Shown here piece after piece: positions 1 to 58,771 of a DNA stretch of 64,000 nt. A model generated the notes under the pieces. It worked only from the letters and a program-made list of their open reading frames with translations. It was not told where the DNA came from and searched no databases. This DNA comes from Polytrichum commune (lineage: Eukaryota > Streptophyta > Polytrichopsida > Polytrichales > Polytrichaceae), in the NCBI GenBank assembly GCA_950295325.1, contig OX485807.1, positions 36,672,440-36,736,439 of the forward strand. Reading direction: 5' to 3'. Each line of letters begins with the position of its first letter. Within the stretch, counting starts at the first letter, position 1. A program made the position numbers and the translations under genes.

Positions 1-1049
1 ATCTCCATCGTAGATTCCCATCCAAAAGTGCGTTAATTAAAGACCAAGGTAGCAGCCAACAAGTCTGCAATTAGGAGTCAATGATTTGGAAATTCCTATA
101 CAACAGATAAGAGATGTGAGAATTAGGGGATTTAACTGAGATACTGGATCATTGAAAAACTTCCTACCAAAACATATCCAGGAGTTAAGGAAAGGAAGAG
201 AGACTTCACCCACAGATGAAGGGATGGATGGACACAAGGCTGATCCGAACAGATCATTCCTCCGGAAACAATGATGATTCTGGCAGACTTCGAACTCCAA
301 TCTTGCAGTTAAGAATGAAAGGTTTCATTCTGTTGGAAGATTGATTAGTTGGTGGCAGCTGTGAAGTGGACGTTGAGAGTGCCCATCACGACCCGTCAAT
401 ATACCGAAGAATGTTGACAGATCGTGATGGACATGCCCATCATCCTCGTCAACCTACGATCGATCCAGACTCCTTCCAATTCCTGCTCCTCCTTCTGCAA
501 CAAGAATGATGTCGATCCTCCTGGTCAAGGTCTCCCTAATTACCGTCATGATCATGAATCACACATGATACGATGAAACAGGAACCAGGTATGTGTCGGT
601 GAAGAAGAAAACTGAAGAGAAGATCATTCAACGACATCAATGACCATCGACAGGAAACTACTAACAAAGTTGTTGATGAATACGGAGGGATAGGATAGGA
701 AACTATGTATCTAATGTCAAGCAATCGTTTTCGGATTCCTCAGATCTCTCCACAGTCATACAGACATGGTGGATATGTAATAGTGCATCATCATGTCCTT
801 ATAAACTCTCCAGACATGTGGAGTAGGACATGCGAATTTGGTCTCAGAAAACTTGAAGGTAAGAAACTTTATGTAGCTGCTTCTAAGTGAAGTTAAGTCA
901 CACTTAAGATGGTAAGACACATGATGTGATGAGTTGCTTCCAAGTGAAGTAAGTCATCAGATCGAAGATGATCATAAGACACATCATGATGAGTTGTTGC
1001 TTCGAAGTGAGAGTAAAGCGATCGACGGAGGAAGTCAAGAAAGGACTAG

Positions 1050-18730: not shown

Positions 18731-19221
18731 GGTGGATAATTCTATTGCTTCTTCTCCTCCTCTTATGATTACGATTATTATTATTCTACCAAGTTGTTAA
18801 AACTTGGCTTCACTTACCGTGTGTGTTTCTCTGACATGGCTATGGGCATGCAGAATTTGGGGAATAGTTCATGGGATCCTCGTGGGACTAATCGTCTTGA
18901 ATAAGTGTGTGGGAATCACAAGGACACCGGCACGACGGGCCCGGAGCATTATGACCAGTTCTTCGAAGGATCTGAGTGCGTGCGTTCCCTAGTTGTGGAT
19001 GGGCACTTTTCAGATATCAAAAATTTAATATACATTGAAAGGATCATGCTTCATTTTTCACTTTGAAAATTTTGAAGGTTTACATTTGACTCCAAACACC
19101 ATCACAAGGATCAACTTTCTATGTTCTTTGTTTGGAGTTACTAACATGTTCATGTCACAAGGGGAGTGCACCTAGTTTTGGATATTATTTGGATATCGAC
19201 TTGTATGCAGAGATATTATGA

Positions 19222-19745
19222 AAGAAAACTGCATGAGCACATTACCATAAAGAACCCAAACCAAGAACATGAGAGTCGATCTTGCTATGATGTTTGGAGT
19301 TGAGAGGTGAACCTCTTGTGAATTATAAGAAAACCGCATGAATACAGTACCATGAAGAACCCAAACAAGAAACACGAGAGTCGATCTTGTTATGATGTTT
19401 GGAGTTGGGAGGTGAATCTCTTGTGAATTATAAGAAAACCATATGAGCACAGTACCATAAAGAACCCAAGCAAGAAACATGAGAGTCGATCTTGTTATGA
19501 TGTTTGGAGTTGAGAGGTGAACCTCTTGTGAATTATAAGAAAACCACATGAACACAGTACCATGAAGAACCCAAGCAAGAAACATAAGAGTCGATCTTGT
19601 TATGATGTTTGGAGTTGAGAGGTGAACCTCTTGTGAATTATAAGAGAACCATATGAGCACAGTACCATAAAGAACCCAAGCAAGAAACATGAGAGTCGAT
19701 CTTGTTATGATGTTTGGAGTCGAGGTGTGAGCCTCTTGTGCATTA
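19222..19745 (-). repeat. 105-bp tandem array, five copies
   Basis: The unit contains AGAGTCGATCTTG(T/C)TATGATG, TTTGGAGTTGAGAGGTGAA and CTCTTGTGAATTATAAGA. Because 105 is a multiple of three and the units carry no stop in one frame, a minus-strand frame runs through all copies (unit of 35 residues with YNSQEVHLSTPNIITRSTL). I read this as a minisatellite rather than a gene: nothing outside the array extends the frame convincingly. Confidence 0.93.
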
Positions 19746-20504
19746 TTTGAAGTGAGAGTCACAAGTTACCTTTAAATGATGTTTCTTTCATGGAGATATA
19801 TATATCCACACCATTTCAAGACTTGGGCATGTACCCATATGGTTAGAATATATTAGATTAGGTCACGGTTGATGATATGTGTACTCGCCTTAAAGTTGTT
19901 GACCGGATGACATCAGAGTGAGCCCGACACAAAACCTTTTTCACCTCGTTAGTGATGGTGTGTTTGAATGTGCCCACAAAATAATAACATCTGAACAGTG
20001 GCGTTTTTGGTGGAGTCGTTGGAGTGAACTCTGTCGTGTGGGAACTAAAATTCGCCAGCTTTTAAATCAGCTCAGGCCCGTGAGCCTTTTATGCGCAAAG
20101 TAGGTAGCTGGGTACTACTAACTCTTTCAGCCATGTCCTTTCACACTTTAGAGCGAGCAGCATTAATACTGCAGTCGTACCTCTTCAATATAATATGACA
20201 TGTTTGGGAAACAAGGAAACTGTGTCGTATTGTCGAGGTGCCACACATTCAATACTATGATAAAACAGGACCTCTTTGTCATGACAACGAGGTACTTTGT
20301 GAAAACACCACATTAGATACTCACTCTGTCATGTATATACAGTAAATATTCCTTTTTGTCAAACGCCCTCCCAAATGTGCAGATTTCTGTCATGAAATCC
20401 ATGTGGACTTGAAGACGGAAGCAATAGTCCAGTGATGTTGCCACTTCAAAAAAACAAGCAGCATATGTGTATATATCCTACTACGCTTCTCCAATATGGC
20501 CTGC

Positions 20505-22673: not shown

Positions 22674-23555
22674 TGCATGGGGAGAACCGGTGGTCAGTTA
22701 CAAATGAACCAGTCGAGTTTGATAAACAACCAGTTGAAGCCCGAGACTTCAGGAGAATTACCGATCATTTTAGAGGAATCTATAGAAGAATATACCTCAC
22801 ATGAATGAAAGCAAAACCCAGAAGATGTCAACATGTGATGGGTTGGAGAATTACCGATCATTTTAGAGGAATCTATAGAAGAATATATACCACATGAATG
22901 AAAGCAGAACCCGGAAGATGTCAACATGTGACCGGTTGGAGAATTACTGATCATTTTAGAGGAATCTATAGAAGAATATACCCCACATGAATGAAAGCAA
23001 AACCCGGAAGATGTCAACATGTGACCGGTTGGAGAATTACCGATCATTTTAGAGGAATCTACAGAAGAATATACCCCACATGAATGAAAGCAAAACCCGG
23101 AAGATGTCAACATGTGACCGGTTGGAGAATTACCGATCATTTTAGATGAATCTATAGAAGAATATACCCCACATGAATGAAAGCAAAACCCGGAAGATGT
23201 CAACATGTGACCGGTTGGAGAATTACCGATCATTTTAGAGGAATCTACAGAAGAATATACCCCACATGAATGAAAGCAAAACCCGGAAGATGTCAACATG
23301 TGACCGGTTGGAGAATTACCGATCATTTTAGATGAATCTATAGAAGAATATACCCCACATGAATGAAAGCAAAACCTGGAAGATGTCAACATGTGATGGG
23401 TTGGAGAATTACCGATCATTTAAGAGGAATCTATAGAAGAATATACCCCACATGAATGAAAGCAAAACCCGGAAGATGTCAGCATGTAAACCGGTTGGAT
23501 TTAGGATCACTAGGATCTTGACCGAAAACTACATATGCCCAAAAACTTCCCAGGC
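22674..23555 (+). mobile_element. Small TIR element, family TGCCCGGGAAG, copy 4, internally amplified
   Basis: Ends TGCATGGGGAG / CTTCCCAGGCA match the family. Unlike the 220-bp copies, this one is about 880 bp because its central part is repeated eight times as a 93-bp unit (see the array entry). The first and last units join smoothly to single-copy family sequence, so the array arose inside the element. Confidence 0.8.
22750..23496 (-). repeat. 93-bp tandem array, eight copies
   Basis: The unit runs from GGAGAATTACCGATCATTTT through AGAAGAATATACC, CCACATGAATGAAAGC and CGGAAGATGTCAACATGTGA to CCGGTT. Copies begin near 22,751, 22,845, 22,938, 23,031, 23,124, 23,217, 23,310 and 23,403, and differ at only a few positions. 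Since 93 is 31 codons, a 241-codon minus-strand frame runs through it with unit MIGNSPTGHMLTSSGFCFHS plus CGVYSSIDSSK. I treat that frame as a by-product. Confidence 0.95.
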
Positions 23556-34787: not shown

Positions 34788-37700
34788 TCAACTCTGAGTG
34801 CACTGGAATGGGTGTCCAACACCTTCAGCTCCTTCCTGCACTCTGAAGCGTTGAAGGAATTCCATAGGCCTGTTCCAAATCCATATTGTCAGATGAGTTA
34901 CAATAAATATTTGAGTACAATAGTGGAAGTAACTGCATACTAGAACAGAAACCCAGCAATATTTGGAACTTTCATAAGTATGGAGGTCTGTTTTGAACCA
35001 TGAGTCATTCAAATGTTATAGCACTTTTCTTGCACATCCTGGTCTCAAGTGTTTTAGATTTATTAAACAGCGCCTCGAGCAGTTATCACGCTACCCGGTA
35101 TTAGGGGAAAGTATGTCTTCGCCTGAGAGGCCTGGGAGCCGCCAAGAATTGGTTGTAAGCTTGTATAACCCAACCGTTGGATGAAATCGTGTCATCCAGA
35201 TCGCAGTTCCTCATCACCAGCTCAGGATGAGAAATCGTTGCTTTGATTCCAATATTGTGGATAAAAATGAAAAAATATGGATGAAAACGTGACATTTTGT
35301 CGCGGTGCAGCATGACAGCTGCCTGTGACAATGTGTAATTAATAGATAAACCTTCACTGAAGGAACGAGATCATTATAAGGTTGTAACTCAGAAGACTTC
35401 TAGAAAGAGCTAGCCAAAAAATGAATGAACCAACGACGAAGAGTTTATGTTTCAGGGATGTGTAAATACAACTGATACACTATGGTCGAAATAAAACAAA
35501 TCAACCACACATAAATTTTCCAATGAGCCTAAAAGGGATTGGTATTCAGTTGTGGAATGTAGATCACCTTGAGCATAGAGCGCCCAAAACACATAAACAA
35601 ATGCAGGACCAAACAGTAAAAGGACAGTACTTCACAACAATCAGAAAACAAGGCAGATCAACAAGAACAAACAATTCCTGTGGATACACAAAGAGAATTG
35701 CAGGGTTGGGAACGTGCACCAATCATGACCTTCACAGAAGCCACTTACAATATTTCTCGATGCCTTCTCATTTGTGTTTGGTTGTCAGCCATAACCTGCA
35801 GAGCATCTGATGTATCTGGACCAGCTTGCCCCCCTGCAACTATCGATGGAACTCTTGCACATGGGGTCCATAGCTGTTATTATAATACAACAACATTGAT
35901 TAGTTTGAATCCGAGAATGCCAAATAATTTATGCTAAATGTGAGGCCCATGCAGTATAACAAACTAATACTGCCATAACATAGGTGCTTCTTCTTGAAGC
36001 AACACACTGTGAAGGTTGCAATTGATTCCTTAATATCAACCTGAATAGATTTTTGTGTGCATGCTTCAACTCAACTACAGAACTGGCATATCCATGCAAC
36101 CAATCAAATATGATGTTTGTCTAACAACCGTGATAGAATGACGTCAATGAGATCTACAGCTACCCATCTAGAACTCAGAGGCTTAACCATTCCTTGTTCT
36201 ACATATCCCAAAGATGAAACTGACAAGCTCCTGCACTACCTTGATTGAGTTATCGATACCGCTTGTGGCAATTGCACAATCAAATGGATGGCTCTGCACA
36301 CAATTGACAACTGCAAATATGCCAAGATGTAATCAGATAGATTCAGAAAACTGAAACCACCAAAGAAAATTGATTAAAATCCTGCAGCATAGCCTCAAAT
36401 AAATAACCCCTAGACAACATCGCGTAACTAGGGATAAGATGTGCAACTCTATAGAAAATTACACTTGAGGAATTTTAGGTGAAGAATCCTGTTGGACGAG
36501 CTCTCAGAGATAGGAGGTTGGAATAAAAAGAAAACAAGCATGAAGTCATAGTAAAGAATAGCATGTGAATATCATTATAATGGAATGAGAATGACATCAT
36601 GAGAAGAACTTAAGTATTAGGCAGCCCACCACTCTCATCGCCATTTAGCATTTTGATGAGCCTTCCAGTCTTCTTCAACCATATGAACCAGCGTCCATCG
36701 TCACTTCCACTCGCCACAAATTCTCCTGTTATTGCAGTAAAATTGCAACGTAGGTTGCATACATTACACAAGAAACAAAAGTGTGCTAACACAAATTTAG
36801 GGAACTTATAGTATCAATGTAGCTTTAGATCGTGATTTAACATAATGCAACAGAAGAATGTCTTCCTTCCACACATGGGATAACCTATCTCCCCTGATCT
36901 GATAAGAAACTTGAAACAGTATTCCCAGAAAATTATTGTGAGGAATGCAGCCATGGAAAGACTGAAGTCCACTCTAAACTATCAGACTCAAAATGATACC
37001 TCGTTCACCAAGGAAGCTCGCCTGTTTGATGTCAGTGCCAGTGTTACAATGCCCAACATAACGTTGCCGCATATCCACTGCAACCTCAGACTGCAGGGAG
37101 TAACAAGAATGGTGCACAACCAAATCACTTGAGTCAAGTAAAACGCAGAAAAGTAACAAAGAACCAATAAGAACCATGCACGTCAACATATTCTGGTGGT
37201 TCAATACACCAAGTGAAACATTTTTGTAGAGCATAAGTTCCGTTTAATCATACAAAGATCAATTCAATTGTTTACAAAAATCCAATCTGAAAGGGAAGAA
37301 CTGAAAGTTGAATCCAGAAGAAACATGTGGTATATCAACATCCTGACTGGTATAAGTACCCACCTGCAAGAAGCTGCTGTCACTCGATGAAGATCCATTT
37401 TTCGGGTGAGACTGCACTCTTCCTGCAGTGTCCCCACGATGTTGGAGTCTCAAATCTAAACCAGATCCAGGTGGCATCCCTGCCTCACGAAACCTCAATT
37501 CTTCCTCCTCTGCAACTGACATCTCAATCTCCATATCCATGTCGTCCATATCATCATCAAAATAGTCGGAGTCATCTCTATCTACGGAATGCGAGTCTAG
37601 TGATTCATCAGCCTCTGCCCTGAACAAATATTCACTGATTGACCGGATCCTTGAGGCTCTCCTCTCCACCCTGGCATCACTATCACTGCCTGTCCTTGCC

Positions 37701-40700
37701 TCCTCTATCAAGCACCACAAAATTCTAGGTCAGGGTCCAAATTGTTCTGAAACTCACTGTGCTTTGCCCATGTTTTCTTTAAATACCAAGTACTGAGTCG
37801 CCCTTTGCCGATTTGTATGAAGTGCACAACTATTGATGGTGAGCAGACATATATCTTAGCATTTTCAAATATGTTAGCACACTACTCTCAGAAATACAAC
37901 AATCCTATTATAAAAGTACTATGGAAAGATTTTAAAATCATCGATTGTGGAGTAATTGGAGAAAAATGGAGGATTACCCAAACCTTCTCTCGAAAGAGGA
38001 GACAACCAGAAAGAAAAACGTAAGGAAGTATCCAAAAGACACATGATACATGTAAGTGGGAGTTTTCACACCTGCATCTATCTTGGCACGGAGCTGCGTG
38101 ACATGCTCAGCTAATTTACTATCAGCTGGATCCAAGTTATGGGACTTCATAGCAAAGTCAAATGCTTCCTTGAATCTCCCAAGCTGCCAACATTCCAAGT
38201 TACATCCTTCAGCAACACATACTTGATATGTTTCCAGAATAAACTGCGTGTTCTGTTCATGTCATGCACTGACACATGCTAATTCAACAGAGGCATGATA
38301 GGAAATAACCCCAGGCCCTTTCTTAAGGTTTCAGACTCTACAGAAAGTAATTTATCAAGCATCCCTTCTGCAGGCACAAGTGTAGGTACAAGTTCTGTAA
38401 GCAGGTAGCCAAATCAGGGTCCTGAAGATTGGTTTCTGTTCCTAGGACTTCCTATACACCATGACATTCAAATACTTTATTAAAAAAAGGCTCCACAGCA
38501 TTCCAAGTAGGTCGTAAGTCCTGTACACCAAACGCTGATACTGTGCAAGTTGACTTCTCACAACTGTTGCACAATTGGTTCATGTGAAGATCTAGACTCT
38601 AACAAATATGTGGAGAATGAGACGGAGAGAACCTGTGACAGTGCCTCCGCCATACAGTGGTGAGCACGACTGGACATGGGGTTAATGTGGCGAGCATCAT
38701 TTGCATCCCGAAGTGCCATATGAACATCATTTTTCCACATGCGCTGCAAAGATACCCACCTCATTGTCATGCACCCTGAATGAAACTAAGCACTAAACAC
38801 ATAAATGCATGTAAGACCTATTCTGAGCCATTCAAGTCACACTCATCTATAACTCCAAGCCTTCTGACCATTCTTGGAAACTAAGCCTCATCTTGGAACT
38901 GCCAGATTCATCTTATGCTTGAAGCAATCATAAATATCAAATGATATCCAGGTTTAAACACGTAACTGCACCTAATATTATATTCTTGATGCATTGATGT
39001 ATATCACCAAACATTTTCTTACTTTTACAATGTAATTTATGAACGTTCATTTAAGTTCCTCTACAAAGTTCCAAGTTCCTTCACAGTTCATGATTTAACA
39101 ACAATTATTTGGGCTCAAACTCTCTTAGACTAGGATTTCACAAATGAAAGGGTGACAGAAAGTATCAACCACATGAGATGAATTGAAAACAATCTTTCAT
39201 ATGGGAGATGATTCATAAATTTTATATTTTCCTCAAACCATCACCGCTTAGGCCACTTTTTGTAAAAATAATGACTCCAATTCTGTAAGGTAGCTTTAAC
39301 TAGAACATACATTTCAAATAACAGGAGATTCTCAATGGAAAAACCAATATAAGCATTCATCCTAGGCAGGAGTAGGTACAACATATATTGAGGAATACTT
39401 GGAAACTCTCCACCTGCTCTCCCAATAAATCAAGAACTAGGGGTCCGAACCTTTAGTAATGCTGCAGCTCGCACACAAAGGCAATCATGGCGGAGCGAAC
39501 TGCCCACCACCAAGCCTCCAGCATCCAATACCTCCCCAGTTGCCTCAATTGAATAAGTGATATTCCCTCCTTCAAGGGCCAGTTTTGCTTCATCTAGTAG
39601 CTCCTTGCACTCTTGCAGCTGCAATAACAAACATTGTTAAGGTTTGAGGTACTAACATGAATAAATAGAACAGAACATACCACACACTTAATCAAAGCTA
39701 TGCACCCTCCTTACAATCTGGCAAAGTCAGAACACTTCTCCCTAGGAGGAAACCGTCTGTAGAACTGGCAAGGAAGTTCATAAATAGATACAACAATGAT
39801 TACTCAAAGTAAAACCCTTTCACGAGACAATCCATTTTTGTCAAGGTGGGATAGATATTGCAAATGGTACAAACCCATTTAGAGTCACGTCGGTAACCAT
39901 GCTTCACAACACCTTCAGAAGGTGGTGGATAATTGTTTGTCTCGTTCAAAGTTGGTGTGAGCAATGTTCTCTTCGGCAAATCACTTGCCATGTATGAAAC
40001 AGAATCCTCATTTCCTGCAGTGATGCTATGAGAATCAATGTTTGACTTGTGAAGCAAATAAGTATTCAAAACCTGCATCTTATTCTTACTGTCCCCTTTC
40101 CTCCTTTACATTAAGGCTTTGTTGGAACAAAATTTCCATATGAATTGCATGAAACAGCATGAGAATCCTTGTCGGAAAAATCTCTCATTTTGACCAATGA
40201 GCAGGAAACCTATGAATTAAGGCCAGATTCACCCAGCAAAGTGGAGGCTGAAGGAGCTCTAAGGATCCTCAGAGACTGTACAAGAGACCTCTTGTTCAAA
40301 ATGGAACTTATCCCTGGAAAGAACCAATTCATCTACATAAAAAAAGGCTAGACAGCCAAAGAATGAACTTAACATACATAATTGTAGCAGCCAATATGGT
40401 CAACAGGCGGTGTCATCATACAGAAATGTATAAGAAGAACCAAAGCTGGCAGATATATCATTCCATTTCACTTTGTTCCCTCACTTCAATACCGTTACTT
40501 CAACTTTTTGACGATGGTGGTGGTGTGCAAAATAACGAATCAACTCGACAAGTAGAGGGACTGCTTCACTTTAAGCAACCTTTATCCATTTCATTACAAA
40601 CAAATCAAGAGCATTCCTATGGAATATCTTAGATACATCTGGTCATAGATTATGATGGTATCTATTTTAGGAGTTTCTTACGAAGTGCCTCAAAATGAAT

Positions 40701-43700
40701 GGGCTTGCAACCAAGTTAAACTTCTAGATTAACAACTTCTATTGTGCTGTAATGGATGTAGAAATTAGACTACAATTGTAGGTAGATACTCTGCAAGTAA
40801 AATGCAAGATAAACCAAAAGTTGTTCCTTGCGTAGCATTGCTACCACTAGAACTAATGCAATTGCAATAGCCATATTCATGGGGAAAACTTCATCTGACC
40901 AAAGTTCAACAGTGAGAAACCCACCACAGTTTGTGTCCATGAGGTAAACATGCTCCCCACTGTAGCTCAACAGGACTTCCTGGCCGTTTGGACTGAAGGT
41001 CACGTGTGTCAAATGAAGTCCTGATCGGCTCTGCATTGTGGACAATGAGTGAGACTCTTTGTCTCATATGACCTGAACTACTGAAGTTCATAAGCAGTAG
41101 ATGACAAATAGACTTCAACAATTTGGAGCAATATTAGCCAGAAAGTGAACATATTACATATTCTGATAAATGTGCTGGACAAAAGTAGCTGACGGGCTCG
41201 GGGGGCTTGCAAGGCTGCCTGGCTGATGTAGGAGGAGGAAGCTTGCGCCGATCATACATACGAGCAAATGCATCACTGCAACACCAAGAAATCCAAGTCT
41301 ATTATCTAGATCCGATTGAATTTAACAAGCAGATTTTGTTTCCTTAGAATGGAAGTGGTCTCACATTTATTTCAGAATCACAGTGAACAATGAAATCCTG
41401 CAGATCAATGAAATCCCACAGATCTAATTGACAAATTCAAAGACTTCTATGACCTGATTGTGGCTCACACAAACAAACTATAAACAAACAAGCACTTTGA
41501 AAGAGACAGTCACCAAGACCTTCCATAAACTTAACCAAATTCGTTGAACTCTTTAACCTAATTGAACACAACCGATCATCATAAAAATCTGTCTATCTAC
41601 TAAATTTATTGTCATCACAATTAACTTCAAGGTGATAAAAGTGAAGCACTTCCTTTGTGGTCCTTGCCTTCTTCAGAATGATTGTAATCAACATTGTGGA
41701 TCAACTGGAAGCACATTGGACATAGAGACCTACCATTTTCTACAACCAATAATAGGGAAATTTCCATGTTGTATGCACCTTTTGAGTTGCAGGAACCAAC
41801 AGATCCAACATTGGTCGAATGTATTCCAATGTTAACCTACAGAAATACTCTAGAGGCCAGTCCATGCACAAAGTGACACAAAACATTTACCTGCCTCCAA
41901 TAAGCAGTAGGTGAGGTCGTGTAGGACTAAGAGCACAAGTTTTCAGGACCAAGCACTGCTTTGGAGGATCTGCCAATGATTTCTTTTGGCCACCTCGAAG
42001 GTCCACCTGTCCAAACAAAACCCGTCATATATGTCAGAACTCTTTGTGAAATCTAGACCTCAACAATTGAATTTGCATAGTCCGAGATCAGGGTAGTGGT
42101 GCCTTCACATGCTATAACCATTACTACTGACGAAGTCGTACAAAAATACTCACAAGGATATTTCGACAGTCTTGATCTGCAGTAGATGGACACAGAATGC
42201 CCTGCCGAAAATCATGCTGCCTAAGTGTACCATCTTCACTTGCACTCCACACCACATTTGGATTCCCATCTTCAACCTAAGCAACAAAGAATTGTTCATA
42301 ATGACAACAAATTTAGAAATTTTTAAATAATCAAAAACCACTTGCACAAATGAAGGCTAGATATCTATCACTTTTGGAGAAAGTAGCTAGACTTATGATA
42401 TGATATTATGCTCCCTAGGTAACAAATAAGGGGTAGCAAATAATAAGTGAATGAATGACAATGGCCCATACCACAGTTCTAGCAACTAAGCACAGGCTTA
42501 TCATGAGTACCTACAAGCAAACAAGGTACAAAGTATTTTCACCAGCAAAAGCCACAAATAATTCTCCTCACCGCCAACTTCTTCACCCGTCTTGTGTGGC
42601 AACTAAAAAGTGCTGTTTGCTCTAAATATGAACCCCTTCCAGAGGCTGATGACCTGCTAACCCGATGTACTCTGACCTGAAGAGAGACAAACATAGTTTC
42701 TCATGAACAGAACAGAGAAGAGCAAAATACACAATCGCCCTGTTGAAATAGAAATTGTAGCAAACCCTCACCCTACATTCAACCAACAAGCTTTTGTCCA
42801 AGGGAGCAAATCAGCATTTCCCACAATTTCCAATATTCATGTGCAGGAACTTGACCCTGATCAGATTAAGTGGACTACTTACTGAACCTGGATTTAGCAA
42901 TACACACGTCTGAAAAGGTAAAGACATGATTCTCATCCTATTCAGCTTGTGAATGTTCACTCTAAATGGCATTCCAGTATCTAATGCACTAAGTAGGTTC
43001 ATAATAGTACATCAATACCATTAGCACCTGATTACGATCCAAACACTTCAAGACCAAATAATTGATATATTTGCACAAACCAATTCTAGACTTCCAACTT
43101 CTTATTTCTATGACCTCACCAGCTACCAAATTCTGATAAGTAAGTTTCACAGCACAAAGAATGACCAAATCAGAAAAAGCATATTTGGTTCTAATAGTTC
43201 TCATTATTCCAGCACTCAAACATACCTCTGCATCACCTGCACCAGAAACTACAACATCGTCTCCGGTCTCGGGCATAAATTTTGTACAGAATATATTAGC
43301 AGAATGTCCAGTGTCAATACTATGGAGCAATTGTTGACTTCCATAGTCCCAGATTTTAACCTGCCAGTCCGAACCATTGTATAAAATCACTACTCATACA
43401 TGTGATGCTCTACACAACCAATGATGAAAATTTGAAGATGAAGTTTGGTAACAAGCATGTCAGCAAATCACACTGGTGCAAATGCATACATCTGTAGATG
43501 AGTAAATTAAAAGAGGCCATTTAGAATGAGGTATGTCACGGGACAACTCACAGAAACAAGAGCGATTGAACCTACAATGTAACCAATTCTTCACAATTTA
43601 CCAGAAGCAGCATAGTTCATTGATTTCTGCTTGAGTGTAAGAACAAACCCTAGTATCATCAGATCCTGATATAAGGAGTGAGCCTTTCGCATTCCAAGCA

Positions 43701-45630
43701 AGAGAATTAACACAACCCTCGTGACTCTGCACAACACACACATAATTCTTGATTTAGGCATCCATAGGCATCTACCAAGAAACCAATCTGTCCAATTCAA
43801 ATCAGAACTACAAAGATAGATAATTTTGCAACTGACACTTCTATATCATAATATACATGATGTACCTTCCACTTATTTCAATTAAGATTTAAAAGCACAT
43901 ACAATCCTTTGTGAAAAGCTACAGTTAATATAATGGGTACACCTCAGATGCGTACAGAGTTTAGAAACTCAATGTGGCCCTAAACTACCAAGACACCAAA
44001 CGACAATGTAGGTGAAATGATCACTTGGGGTAGGCAATGAGAGATTTCTTCCCAGACCTAATAAATTCTCTAGCCTCGTTCACACAATCTTGTCGGTATG
44101 CACGGAGGCAAAAATAAATAAATAAATTGCATGCAAAATTGCATGAAGCATATATTTAGGGATTACAAGATAACTGATTATCTTCAGCTTCAACATGTCC
44201 AAGACGAGATATTATGAGAAACAGTCATACCTCCAGAATCTTCTCAAGATCCAATCGCTGCACTAACGAAGAATGCATTTGCAATGCTCGCCTTGAATAT
44301 GGGAGCATGACTGGGTACGGCAGCTGTTCTCAACGCCCACATAAAAATTTCGAGAATCAGCTTGCTGTCAAATAGAGAAGAGGGAAAATATAACAACACT
44401 GCGCCTTCAGCTACTGATGACCCCACTGACGTGCGAAAAAAAAGTGATTCAAGGGAATATGAAGATAAGATTCCTATAAACTGTATCATGGTGTAAAACT
44501 TGAGAAAACTCCCAAAAGCATCATCAGCAGTCCATTGTGAGACAGTTCCAGGAATGCAGACAGGCTCAATGCAAATAGCTCGTTGTCTTTGCAGTCAAAC
44601 GAAATGTCTTACAAGTACAGATTCCTCAAATTAAATCTCAAGAGCAGTAACAATTCATGGACGTAACAATTCATGCACAGACGTGCCCCAAATGAACATC
44701 GCAAGACGTCCTAATTTGGAGCGATATGGTATCTAGCGTACTCGTTAGTGTAGTCCAACATACAACGACAACAAAGGCTTCACTGCATCAAGACGTCTTG
44801 ATCTCCTAAGCGAAACACAACATATTCGGACATTTACTACGAGCTGCACTCGAAACTGGCTCCCGTATTTTGCTTTTTAAGTGCAAGATGCAATAGCTGC
44901 TTTAGGATGTCTCCAAATCAGAATGAACAGATTCAACCAAAACTCTCTCAACTTCACTCTAGTAAAGAATGTACCCTACTCACCAGCATCCAGTACAGAA
45001 CTCGGCCAGTTCCTTCATTGAATAACCGGGTTCCTAATTACTGCAACTTTCACATATAGGTTACAAATAACGACGATAAGGTTCACGGCAGCACTGGCAT
45101 AAATGCAGGACATCATTCCAGGTTCCCTCATCGAGAAATTACCCACATCGAGGAGCTCCATCAACTTGCTGCTAAGCTTGGCGGATGAGTGTGAATAGAT
45201 AAAATGGCAAAACCAAAAAAGAAATCTACGTTTATTTGTGGCCTGCTCCGCTACACACACGTTGTTTAGGTGATGCATAGTCCCTCCAAAAACCGCAAGT
45301 TGTGAACCCTTGAGGATGTAGGGAACATAGAATAATGTAAAATAATACTAACGATAATAAGGAGATAATGTATGCGAATGCTATTGATTGAGCAGCAGGA
45401 TCCCATCCACGAATGCAACCATTTATGATGTATGCTCTGCCTCCTTCAACCTCCCCCTCTGATGACTTCCATCTTCGCCGTGCTAGAAAAGTTCATCCAA
45501 ATTCTGTAGCCTAATTGGTGCATTGGACGAGAGGGAGGAAACGAGCGATCGCACAAACCTGAGGGGAATTGAGCGATCGGCCGACGATGTGGCCGGACAA
45601 GTTGCCATCCGGGCTCGTGAACTTCTTCAT
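34788..45630 (-). CDS. ASG2: WD40/TPR protein of the ASG2 / WDTC1 (DCAF9) family
   Basis: Substrate-receptor-type WD40 protein; Arabidopsis ASG2 binds DDB1 of CUL4 ligases, is farnesylated, and affects germination and ABA response. Model of 19 exons: 45630-45559, 44323-44231, 43726-43649, 43360-43226, 42676-42572, 42276-42154, 42006-41891, 41275-41158, 41030-40921, 40088-39875, 39618-39451, 38743-38633, 38183-38072, 37704-37364, 37090-37000, 36725-36630, 36310-36240, 35873-35749, 34869-34788. Total 2,361 nt, 786 residues, phases consistent, GT-AG throughout. N-terminal WD40 repeats span about residues 56-310 (SHEGCVNSLAWN, LLISGSDDT, VVSGAGDAE, LTHVTFSPNG). WSASEDGTLRQHDFR (about 171-185) fits a DDB1-binding DWD box. 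TPRs span about 389-518, an acidic Ser/Asp/Glu linker 519-632, and two further WD40 repeats 640-722 (FVASGSDDGRWFIW, IATSGIDNSIK). The C-terminal CTQS is a CaaX prenylation box. The exon 2 acceptor and the exon 9/10 junction are the least certain. Arabidopsis protein is about 757 residues. Confidence 0.93.
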
Positions 45631-54048: not shown

Positions 54049-57000
54049 CTAGACTTCCAACTTTCCAACACCAAAGGAAGACTTGGTATCACATTTGAGC
54101 TCAAGGTACAACGAGAAGAACAAATGTAACGACTCCACCCGGCTCTCGTACCTACATAATGAAATGTGGAAAAGAAAAGAAAAAGCACAATGTTAAACCG
54201 ACACAATATAATATTGATCGACTTCATTTACCTGCATACGTAATTTCACGACATTGTCAATGGTTGAAAGAGGGTGTGAATATAGTATGCAATCAATGGG
54301 ATGGGTCAATAGACTTACACCGGGATATCAAAGATCAAACAACAAATGTCAACGAAAGTTGCGAGATCCACATCCAACGTAGCCGAAGGAAGCTCAATCT
54401 CATTCAAAGTTTTCTCGATTGTTGGCGGCCACTCCTATTCAAATCATACATGAATGCGAATGCGTTGTGAGTGCTTTCGATTTATGCAAGGAAAATGCAA
54501 GGTTCAACTCTTACTAGGCTTTGTTACTAGACCACTTATGATCGAACTTCACATTGTAATAATGAACATCGCGTACTCCAATACGGCTTTGATGTTTGGG
54601 GTACTACAAATGAAAACATTCAATACATGTTATTGCTTGATGATAATGTTAGGCAAGAGATTAACAATTCACCGTGTTTGTGTGACAATGTCACAATTGC
54701 CAATTTAGGGTCTAGAGTGGCCATGAATTTTTTGAATGGTCATATTTTATTGTGGTTCTTTTAGGTTTTATAGACTTTCAAGGACCAGTGACCAATGACG
54801 ATGACCACCATTTTTTAAATGCTCTCATTGGTCACATGGTGGTCTCGCTTTGAATTATACAAGGTCAATGAAAATTGAAGTGACCATGGGCAAGCATGTC
54901 AAAAAAATGAATGAGAAAGTGGCATGGAATCCTACAGGTTCAAAAGTGGATAATGTTTGATGATCACCCAAATTTTGTGATGAGAGAATCCAAATAAGTT
55001 GTCTCAGTGGGAAATGAAGGTGGCCATGTCTAAATATAAAAATAGAAGAAAATTCATTTCTAGCATTATATAGTATAAACAACAACAACAACAAAAACAC
55101 TACATTTGGGTCTAAGTTTACACTACGTCTCGTGACCAAAGCTTTGAGAAAATTGACGTGGATTTCTCTTGGTCATGGTCTTTGGACCACCAACCATCAC
55201 CGTTGAAATCCTAACTCCATTTTTCATCACTCCCTTGGTCACATGTGTACAACAACCCTCATGTGTGACCTAGAGAATTAGATACTTGGCACAAAACTCA
55301 CTTGCTTAAGCACCTCCATTTTGGGCATAGGCTTTGAGAAATTAACAGTGGGTGGTGGTTCATTGCAATGTAGTTCTTTAATGCTCTTAATCCACGCATC
55401 CAACTTTTGAGGATTCTTTTCAACAAGATCAATAGATGGGACCTGCATACATTCCCACTTACACATCCGTAAATGATCGCTCATCCAAGAGTAGAAGGTT
55501 ATCATAACTCATAACATTTTTGCATACATGGCGCACGAGATCGTTCATTTTATTTTTTCCATGAGTTAACTGGTTTCAACTAATAACCAACTCAAGTAGG
55601 TAGATGACTCGCCACTTGCAGTTGGTCATTCGCTCTCTGCTTGTTGGTTATGCAACGCATAATGACAAGAGAACAATGCATTTGCTAGTTATGTTATGCA
55701 AGGACCAAGATAACATGCATAAACTCTCCAACCAGGCAAGTTTGAACCCTTGGGGAGTGGATCTTTCATATAACGTACAAATTAACGTGAGTGTAACAAG
55801 GAGTACCTAGGAGAGAGAATTTTTTTCTTTTCAAGTGTGTACATTTAGAAAGGCAATTAAGAATGTTGAAGTGAATGTAAATGTAGAAAAGGGAGCCCTC
55901 AGGTTTAGAGAAAATTTTGATAATTGATGTGCTACACTAAATATAATATTTAGTGTCACCAATTCTAATTGTCTTGCTCAATACCAATTGTAAACCGCGG
56001 TATAATGTCACCACCACCAAATGTTAACCCAACATTATTTGTCATTCCTTGTAACTTTTTGGGAATCAAAGTTTTACAATGTTGCGATTATTGTCACTTA
56101 CCAAGTGATTTTCATCCAAATTTCAATCATCACTGACAATCTTTCATCACAAGTTGTTGACCAAATAAGGTAAGTTTTTTGGCCAATGGATGAACTCATC
56201 CATCATCCATGACAATATTTGTTTACTTAATCATAAGAATTGTCATCCAAACAAATTACCATAGTGACATAAAATATCATATGACACTAAATTTCATATT
56301 TAGTGTAGTTTCATCCAAATCATGTTTTCATTCATTATTGTCATATGGTAATACTCCTTAATGACTACCTTGTTCACTCTTGTTAGGGATTGCATTTGGG
56401 TTCTAGGTATTATAAGCTGAAGACTCTTGGAGCACTCATGGGCTCCCTTGAATTTCGCTCTTTGGATTATGGCTAGTTTATTGTGTTGTTGTCTTTGTTT
56501 GTTTGATGCAATCAATGAGTTACATGCTATGCATGAGAAAAAAGTTCAACATTTGACTTTCTCATTGGAAAGCTACAATGGATTCTATTAGAAGTAAAGG
56601 CCTAATTAATCCACAATTTTGTATATGTAATGAAGGCAATTATCACATTAAATTGAAAACCTTACTTTAAATACATGACTTCATTTTCTAGCATGCCGTT
56701 AGTACATATACATTTGATTTTCTCTGCAAACTTTTTGTATATAAGAGGTTCAATTTCAAAGTGACCCATGCATGTCATTTAGGTCTCCAATAAAGAGTCC
56801 ACCCCCTGGTTTGAACCTTACTCACTGTAAGATGAAAAACCTTGTGTGAAAAAATACTTTATTAACATGTTGTCATGTTAGACGCCTTGCATGTCCAATC
56901 ATAATTAATGTATAGAGTTTGCACTTCAATGGACAAATCTTATGACAGAAATGACATAAACAACTTTTAGATATGAACTAAATTTCTTGTTGTTGACATG

Positions 57001-58771
57001 CTTTAGTTGCATGCACAAAACTTGATTATTTGACCACATTGCTTCTCAAAATATGTATAATTAGGATTTCCATCATATTCTTTTGACATCTTCTTCCAAA
57101 TATTTTTTTGTAGAGCAAAGTTTTTTGTCCACGCTTACTAAAATGAGAATGTCACGTATATGTAAAGTACGACAGGCCAATTTTTTCAAATGTAACACTT
57201 TCACTTTAAAAATGAAAGAATCACTCTTGAATAACCTAATTTAGGTCTACATGCGTATGGTAGTGTCTAGTGGGCAAGAAAATTGCATGCTCAGACTTTG
57301 AGCACAAGTGTTGGACCTTGCACTTGACAATTGTGAAAACACACATAACATTGTTGAGTAGAACATTGATGTTCCTTTCGGAATTGATTATTATAGATAC
57401 CATCTTGGAGAATTTTCAGTGTTAAATTGAATAAATGATATGTGTGAAGGCTTCAAGTCTTAAGATGGGCTCACAATGGGTTGAGGAAAGGTTATATTAT
57501 GCATAATGTAGCATGAGCCAAAAGTAAGGTTTAGGTTGATATAATAACTGCACATATAATTTAGTAAGTAATTCTCTCAGAAAGAGGACGAAACAACTTC
57601 AAATGTTAACAACTTGTTTTTAATTCACAACATGTCCTTCCAAGTTCAACATTTGTATAAATCATCTCTAGAATAGGACATGGATGTGGTAACAATCATA
57701 ACATTATTCATCTCCATAACAATGTTATGGAGATGAAAATGTGAAGAATATTTCACGGAATAATGTCAGTCCCACATAATCTTGTTATGGATTTGAATAA
57801 TGTTATGATAGCCTCAACGAGTTCATAATTCATTCTATATATTGAGCACCTGGACCGGATGGAGATTAGGTTGCGAACACGCCGACCGGAGTTGCAACAT
57901 CAACACTTGTGCGTCACTTTGCTTTGGTCCATCCTCGTCCAATACCTACACCAACCCAATATTTTAGTTAGTTCTGTTATCCCCAAATGTTAATGGCTTC
58001 AGTTTTTTCTTGGTTTGTTTGAAAACGGTTTGTGGGTAACATGTGCACACGACAATAATATGAAGAAGAATAAAATTGTTATTGACACGCCATTATGAAA
58101 TGTAGATATGTATTCACCCAAAGTTGAACAACTTTTTGTTTGGGCCATTTGATCATGGACACGTCTTGTAAGTTCATGCAAGGCCCAAACCACTTATGAA
58201 CTCTAGAAACTTCTCAAGACCTTACCTTCAATCCAAGATTATCACAATGATCATCTGGACGTGGGACCTTGATGAACTCGTCAACAAGACCTAAGGCAGG
58301 AATGAACTCGGGAAGAAATGGCTTGAGAGTGGTCCCGATTTCTATATCACGTGGCTTGTATTGGTCTATGTATTGAAACAATTCACTTATCTCATTGTCC
58401 TGCATTCAAAATTGTAAACGTTTTGTTTGAAATTGGTTAAAAGGCTTGATGTAGCACATGTATTGGATTCATGGTATATTTAATCTTTCCAATTTCTTGC
58501 AATTGTTGAATATATGCATAATTTGAAAATATGATCATGTAGCTTTTTGATGAGACTATTGAAATGAACATATTGTTACCGGGAATGAATCAATACGGTG
58601 AGAGTACAAAGTATCATGAGAAGGGGCCCTCATCAAAGCGGAGGATGGCTGATGCCTCCCGATCGAAGGAGACATGACAAATTCATCAAAGTTGCTATGA
58701 AGTAATGAATCTTGATATCGAAGACATTGAGAGGTATTTTCAGTAACTAATGGTGTTCCAATTGCATCCAT
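54049..58771 (-). CDS. IFT46: Intraflagellar transport protein 46 (IFT-B subunit)
   Basis: IFT46 is an IFT-B core/periphery subunit needed for cilium assembly and, in Chlamydomonas, for carrying outer dynein arms. Exons: 58771-58580, 58399-58226, 57945-57850, 55442-55302, 54434-54319, 54151-54049. They sum to 822 nt, 273 residues plus TAG, all GT-AG and phase-consistent. Residues 1-64 are Ser-rich and variable, as in the family. Then comes the conserved domain: SELFQYIDQYKPRDIEIGTT, LKPFLPEFIPALG, EFIKVPRPDD, NLGLK (65-122); VLDEDGPKQSD (123-154); KLDAWIKSIKELH and NFSKPMPKMEVL (155-201); EWPPTIEKTL and FDIPV (202-240); VESLHLFFSLYLELK (241-273). The C-terminal tail after the last helix is short. 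The start (58,771) is the first Met of exon 1 after a possible acceptor, so an upstream leader exon or a longer N-terminus is possible. The exon-free third intron is about 2.4 kb and full of transposons. Confidence 0.92.
55749..56808 (+). mobile_element. Mutator-like non-autonomous TIR element, copy 3, in IFT46 intron 3
   Basis: The left end CTTGGGGAGTGGATC and the complement of the right end (CAGGGGGTGGACTC) match. A perfect 9-bp duplication GTTTGAACC flanks it (55,740-55,748 and 56,809-56,817), which supports the Mutator assignment. It is interrupted by a CTACACTAA MITE at 55,932-56,308. It lies in the long IFT46 intron between exons ending 57,850 and starting 55,442... on the exon-distal side; part of it begins about 300 bp upstream of exon 4 in transcript direction. 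Confidence 0.85.
55932..56308 (+). mobile_element. CTACACTAA-family MITE, 377 bp, nested
   Basis: Left end CTACACTAAATATAATATTT, right end ATTTCATATTTAGTGTAG. It aligns with the element at 47,729 across its length. The host element reads GATGTG before and TTTCATCC after the insert; the uninterrupted copy at 8,920 reads GATGTGATGATTTCATCC at that point, giving a direct empty-site comparison. Confidence 0.9.
57698..57806. repeat. Foldback element in IFT46 intron 3
   Basis: Arms of about 33 bp at 57,698-57,730 (CATAACATTATTCA ... ATAACAATGTTATG) and 57,774-57,806 (inverse, about 30 of 33 paired), with a loop of about 43 bp. The loop and right arm resemble the foldback at 61,981-62,133 (GTCAGTCCCACATAA, TTGAATAATGTTATG). 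It lies 44 bp inside the intron from the exon 3 donor. Confidence 0.75.

Follow-up and report, generated by a model that had tools for sequence, protein, structure and literature searches.

An important question raised by this locus is whether the genome of a moss, Polytrichum commune, carries an intact gene for IFT46, and what such a gene would be kept for. Within the window, by which we mean the whole stretch of 64,000 nucleotides that was analysed, a minus-strand join of six exons (58771-54049) rebuilt from the sequence gives 822 bases, that is 273 codons and a stop codon, with no internal stop. The five introns measure 180, 280, 2407, 867 and 167 bases in order, GT-AG borders are found in all five and the phases fit, and the GC content of every exon (0.40-0.53) exceeds that of every intron (0.28-0.37). 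Exon 1 (58580..58771, residues 1-64) supplies the predicted ATG and an N-terminal tail and ends at the donor gtaaca. It is followed, likewise on the minus strand, by exon 2 (58226..58399; DNEISELFQYIDQYKP, then EFIKVPRPDD and finally LGLK), exon 3 (57850..57945; VLDEDGPKQSDAQVLMLQLR to PVQ), exon 4 (55302..55442; VPSIDLVEKNPQKLDAWIKSIKELH to MEVLKQ), exon 5 (54319..54434; EWPP to LDVDLATFVDICCLIFDIP) and exon 6 (54049..54151; VYESRVESLHLFFSLYLELK to KLEV and the stop). These exon borders, as well as the activity of the gene, are predicted from the DNA.

The identity of the gene as IFT46 is decisive. Pfam family PF12317 (IFT46_B_C) matched the 273-residue protein with E = 1e-74 and 251.2 bits (cut-off 22.2), aligning residues 65-259 to profile positions 13-208 of 211, and was the sole family above its cut-off, the other row, DUF1232, falling below its own. 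A PDB search returned 8bd7_D (IFT46) as the best row (E = 1.7e-58, residues 66-260), the IFT46 carboxy-terminal domain 4uzz_A as the second (E = 3e-21) and a designed protein as the third and last (E = 0.78). We take 8bd7 chain D to be Chlamydomonas reinhardtii IFT46, and 4uzz to be an IFT52/46 complex in which the C-terminal domain of IFT46 pairs with IFT52. The conserved region of chain D (344 residues) aligns throughout, with 94 of 195 aligned residues identical and with IKVPRPD, LGLKVLDE, KQSD, EWPP, DIPVY and VESLH as common blocks, whereas 65 residues precede the aligned region in the moss model versus 113 in 8bd7_D; 4uzz chain A comprises the C-terminal part of IFT46 only, and it is this domain that the moss protein matches.

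Exon by exon, the support is distributed as follows. Exon 2 lies within the Pfam match, exon 3 within both the Pfam and the PDB matches, and exon 6 aligns to the end of the conserved region in the PDB match. In a genome-wide search with the PF12317 profile (407.8 Mb, 64 contigs; four of four candidates scored), all three matches fell within this locus, in exons 2, 4 and 5, with no separate match for exon 3, and matches were found in none of 14 control genomes. The family blocks occupy exon 2 (SELFQYIDQYKPRDIEIG and EFIKVPRPDD), exon 5 (EWPP and FDIPV, the codon for the V of the latter being begun in exon 5 and finished by exon 6) and exon 6 (VESLHLFFSLYLELK). The original prediction of an intact IFT46 gene was thus reproduced in its coordinates, strand, six exons, 273 residues, uninterrupted frame and GT-AG introns, and the comparison with the IFT46 profile that it proposed returned a significant match rather than none. 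Its broader statement, of family blocks in every one of the six exons, stands for exons 2, 5 and 6, where the listed blocks are present, and does not extend to exon 1, which is outside the Pfam and PDB matches.

We are therefore highly confident in a reading of the locus as an intact nuclear IFT46 gene, the only copy seen, that would act as an IFT-B scaffold for sperm flagella; that outer-arm docking is unused is a weaker part of this reading. Contamination from an alga or other ciliated organism, in favour of which we found nothing, is so improbable as to be negligible: the window is embedded in a 52.9 Mb contig (C5, 36672440-36736439), and the same 64 kb as IFT46 includes a MIR1033 precursor (367-447, minus strand), which scores 85.8 bits across the full model and alone in the window reaches the Rfam gathering score. 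MIR1033 is presumably a moss miRNA family and the strongest pointer to a moss origin of the window. With a moss as the source, an IFT46 gene is expected, and finding one in a plant with flagellate sperm amounts to finding the expected orthologue. Moss IFT46 may well already be in published data, as the excerpted text of PMC9632326 counts IFT46 as one of its phylogenomic markers and lists the Physcomitrium genome as a source; within the excerpts of the literature on IFT46 with moss or Physcomitrella, no description of moss IFT46 was found.

If the gene is genuine, does it tell us that the plant has swimming sperm? Excerpts of PMC11149776 report a complete loss of IFT in Spermatophyta among the genomes of that study, so the logic leading from IFT46 to flagellate sperm stands. 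The original prediction drew just this inference, and it is now backed by IFT52, IFT140, a radial-spoke gene and eight dynein heavy-chain loci in the same genome, such that swimming sperm in this plant are well supported; put differently, DNA alone supports the production of swimming sperm, now or in the recent past. As for the mechanism, IFT46 is a subunit of the IFT-B complex, and its C-terminal domain pairs with the C-terminus of IFT52. From what is established about IFT, this conserved domain of the moss protein would engage the IFT52 C-terminus in the same way and hold IFT-B together, and the assembled IFT-B would let motor-driven trains build the flagella of antheridial sperm cells.

The partner genes were identified by genome profile searches. 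IFT52 is found on contig C3, with four GIFT matches at 25053644-25057214 (matches in none of the 14 control genomes) and an IFT52_central exon above the cut-off. For its C-terminal domain, single exons scored 14.0 and 23.4 bits, under the cut-off of 27, and two exons joined at a guessed splice scored 45.4 bits, above it. The genome search for this domain (PF21178) had given no usable match, with no control genome matching either; given that the C-terminal exons are visible on C3, this negative is very probably false, with introns as the cause, which in turn weakens the other short-domain negatives. IFT140, of IFT-A, is represented at C1:52.43 Mb by an open exon of 950 residues with an IFT140-specific propeller and a C-terminal match in Pfam and with IFT140 as its best PDB row (E = 7.2e-193); one of 14 control genomes matched in this search, below the cut-off. 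The radial-spoke gene at C1:21.99 Mb has four matches, and none of the 14 control genomes matched.

The full IFT-B set is only partly seen. Searches for the IFT81 CH domain and for BBS5 gave no usable match in the genome, and no control genome matched either; like those for PF21178, the DYNC2H1 AAA domain and the dynein light intermediate chain (LIC), they are negatives without a positive control and no proof of absence. IFT57, though conceivable there, was not accepted at C2:59299937-59300906, where six overlapping, coiled-coil-like matches cover only profile positions 222-354; these pass the cut-off with their neighbours, and three archaeal control genomes match the profile too, below the cut-off. 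The region itself forms one long open frame in which coiled-coil-like matches to the IFT57 profile recur. Two further fragments were noted in passing: a fifth GIFT match, on C1, belongs to a partial IFT52 copy (C1:46949095-46952256) that is 88% identical to the C3 gene over ~1.46 kb, with one GIFT exon within the 3.2 kb examined, and a fifth radial-spoke match, on C5, is weak and contains a stop.

The dynein heavy chains bear both on the presence of flagella and on what IFT46 may carry. Of 37 genome-wide matches to the AAA_6 profile (40 of 40 candidates scored; three of 14 control genomes matched, all below the cut-off), 36 fall in eight multi-exon loci and one is weak. The AAA_lid_11 profile gave 18 matches (20 of 20 candidates scored), each of them ~18-48 kb downstream of one of the eight AAA_6 loci and on its strand, with none elsewhere in the genome and none of the 14 control genomes matching; neither profile revealed a ninth dynein heavy-chain gene genome-wide. 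In the PDB, the best row was DNAH3 for the locus at C3:44.18, 8glv_Fm followed by DNAH6 for the one on C7, 8glv_Mm for C1:51.31, 8glv_JG for both C6:10.03 and C1:15.14, 8glv_Lc for C6:24.08, 8glv_Cn followed by DNAH10 for C1:55.64, and 8glv_Co, labelled as inner arm (I1 1-beta), for C2:14.60. An inner-arm label on the best row is thus carried by one of the eight loci, several rows being named just 'Dynein heavy chain, putative'; we take 8glv to be a Chlamydomonas axoneme and the unlabelled best-matching chains to belong to inner arms, just as we take DNAH9 and DNAH17 to be outer-arm heavy chains. In all eight loci, the best row leads the best row read as outer-arm (DNAH9 or DNAH17) by 127-257 bits among the best 60 rows each, in a comparison of rows read as inner-arm with rows read as outer-arm. 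We read the eight loci as probably of inner-arm type, and no outer-arm heavy chain was recognised among them in the two genome searches and the best 60 PDB rows of each.

Two observations concern the dynein loci themselves. Those at C1:15.14 and C6:10.03 Mb form a duplicated pair with 93% identity in the AAA1 region. The weak AAA_6 match, at C2:18.74 Mb (L045:4810-5004), is a one-exon piece that is 60-63% identical over 65 residues to these same two loci; it is most like them and not a cytoplasmic dynein, and, with no further dynein exons matching within 10 kb, it looks like a pseudogene piece.

Such pieces are also what one might cite for a quite different reading, in which flagella were once present and IFT46 is a decaying relic, an unexpressed pseudogene. 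Pieces of other ciliary genes do occur in the genome (the partial IFT52 on C1 and the one-exon dynein piece at C2:18.74 Mb), and expression of IFT46 is a prediction from sequence. Against this, however, the 273 codons run without a stop or frameshift across five intact introns, the protein shares 94 of 195 aligned residues with an IFT46 of solved structure (8bd7_D), and partner and axoneme genes are present in the same genome, all of which makes a relic very unlikely.

What, then, of the cargo role of IFT46? Excerpts of PMC11879689 report that Chlamydomonas IFT46 binds ODA16 through the N-terminal motif Nxxx(D/E)E, which mammalian IFT46 does not have. In contrast to the Chlamydomonas protein with this docking site, the moss model contains no match to the motif in its 273 residues, of which those of exon 1 are without homology. 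The motif is not universal in the IFT46 family. Mammals have outer arms even though their IFT46 is without it, and its absence is therefore no proof of a lost cargo role. As to the outer arms of mosses, the text seen of PMC4361367 describes ODA8 as absent from organisms whose outer arms have been lost secondarily, with Physcomitrella as a named case and a similar pattern for ODA16, and that of PMC3936282 describes outer dynein homologues as absent from Physcomitrella. The simplest reading, albeit a weaker one, is that IFT46 is retained in this moss for assembling IFT-B and has ceased to serve the delivery of outer arms: since the searches showed no recognisable outer-arm heavy chain and the published motif is missing from the predicted N-terminal tail, the docking of ODA16 and outer-arm dynein through the IFT46 N-terminus, best known from Chlamydomonas, would not be exercised here, and IFT46 would owe its retention solely to its role as a scaffold. 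Moss IFT46 would in that case be a natural comparison for how IFT46 acts once outer-arm dynein is gone.

This brings us to an important caveat, namely exon 1. Residues 1-64 have no family homology in the Pfam or PDB matches, which start at residue 65 and 66, and the exon is supported only by its ATG, by an uninterrupted reading frame and by a GT donor in the right phase. It is conceivable that IFT46 is real and its N-terminus mis-modelled, with another upstream exon providing the true N-terminus, perhaps together with the ODA16 motif; the lack of homology in exon 1 and a 5' start that is a prediction from sequence would fit such an error, and if exon 1 were wrong the motif argument would fall. 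On the other hand, the frame of exon 1 is open, in phase and equipped with a GT donor, and a putative upstream IFT46 motif, looked for in two versions on the minus strand between 58200 and 64000, is absent there in both. We consider a mis-modelled N-terminus unlikely, though deserving of serious attention, and it is compatible with an intact IFT46 gene in all but the scaffold-only part.

A more far-reaching idea concerns the IFT machinery as a whole. Genome-wide, there was no usable match to either the DYNC2H1 AAA domain or dynein LIC, and no control genome matched either of these; IFT140 is thus kept while no IFT-dynein heavy chain is seen, in profile searches without a positive control. One possibility, which we put forward tentatively and regard as rather doubtful, is that moss sperm flagella might be built by a stripped form of IFT, with a scaffold-only IFT46, the docking tail and outer arms lost, and IFT-A (IFT140) trains running without the usual retrograde motor, the latter being proposed because the searches turned up no heavy chain of cytoplasmic dynein 2 and no dynein light intermediate chain. 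That seedless plants have a reduced IFT system is in part already published, given that excerpts of PMC4092220 report several IFT-B and BBSome components as absent from non-seed land plants and those of PMC4736243 describe Physcomitrella as being without RABL2. Should the absences of outer-arm and IFT dynein hold, mosses would offer a case in which the scaffold role of IFT46 stands apart from its cargo role, and the absence of IFT dynein would in itself raise the question of how IFT-A operates without a motor.

The remainder of the window offers a few minor observations. Pfam searches on 19 different stop-free stretches identified WD40-like pieces and otherwise weak matches only. Two long open frames on the minus strand, at 22694-23419 and 19172-19765, consist of tandem repeats (beginning MIGNSPTGHMLTSSGFCFHSCGVYSS and STPNIITRSTLMFLAWVL), no single stretch of which passes in Pfam by itself. 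Finally, the minus strand of 36600-43850 probably holds a gene of several exons that encodes WD40 repeats (43598-43753, PF00400 E = 5e-7) and, by eye, TPR-like stretches, a combination in which we see a presumable resemblance to proteins of the WDTC1/DCAF type.
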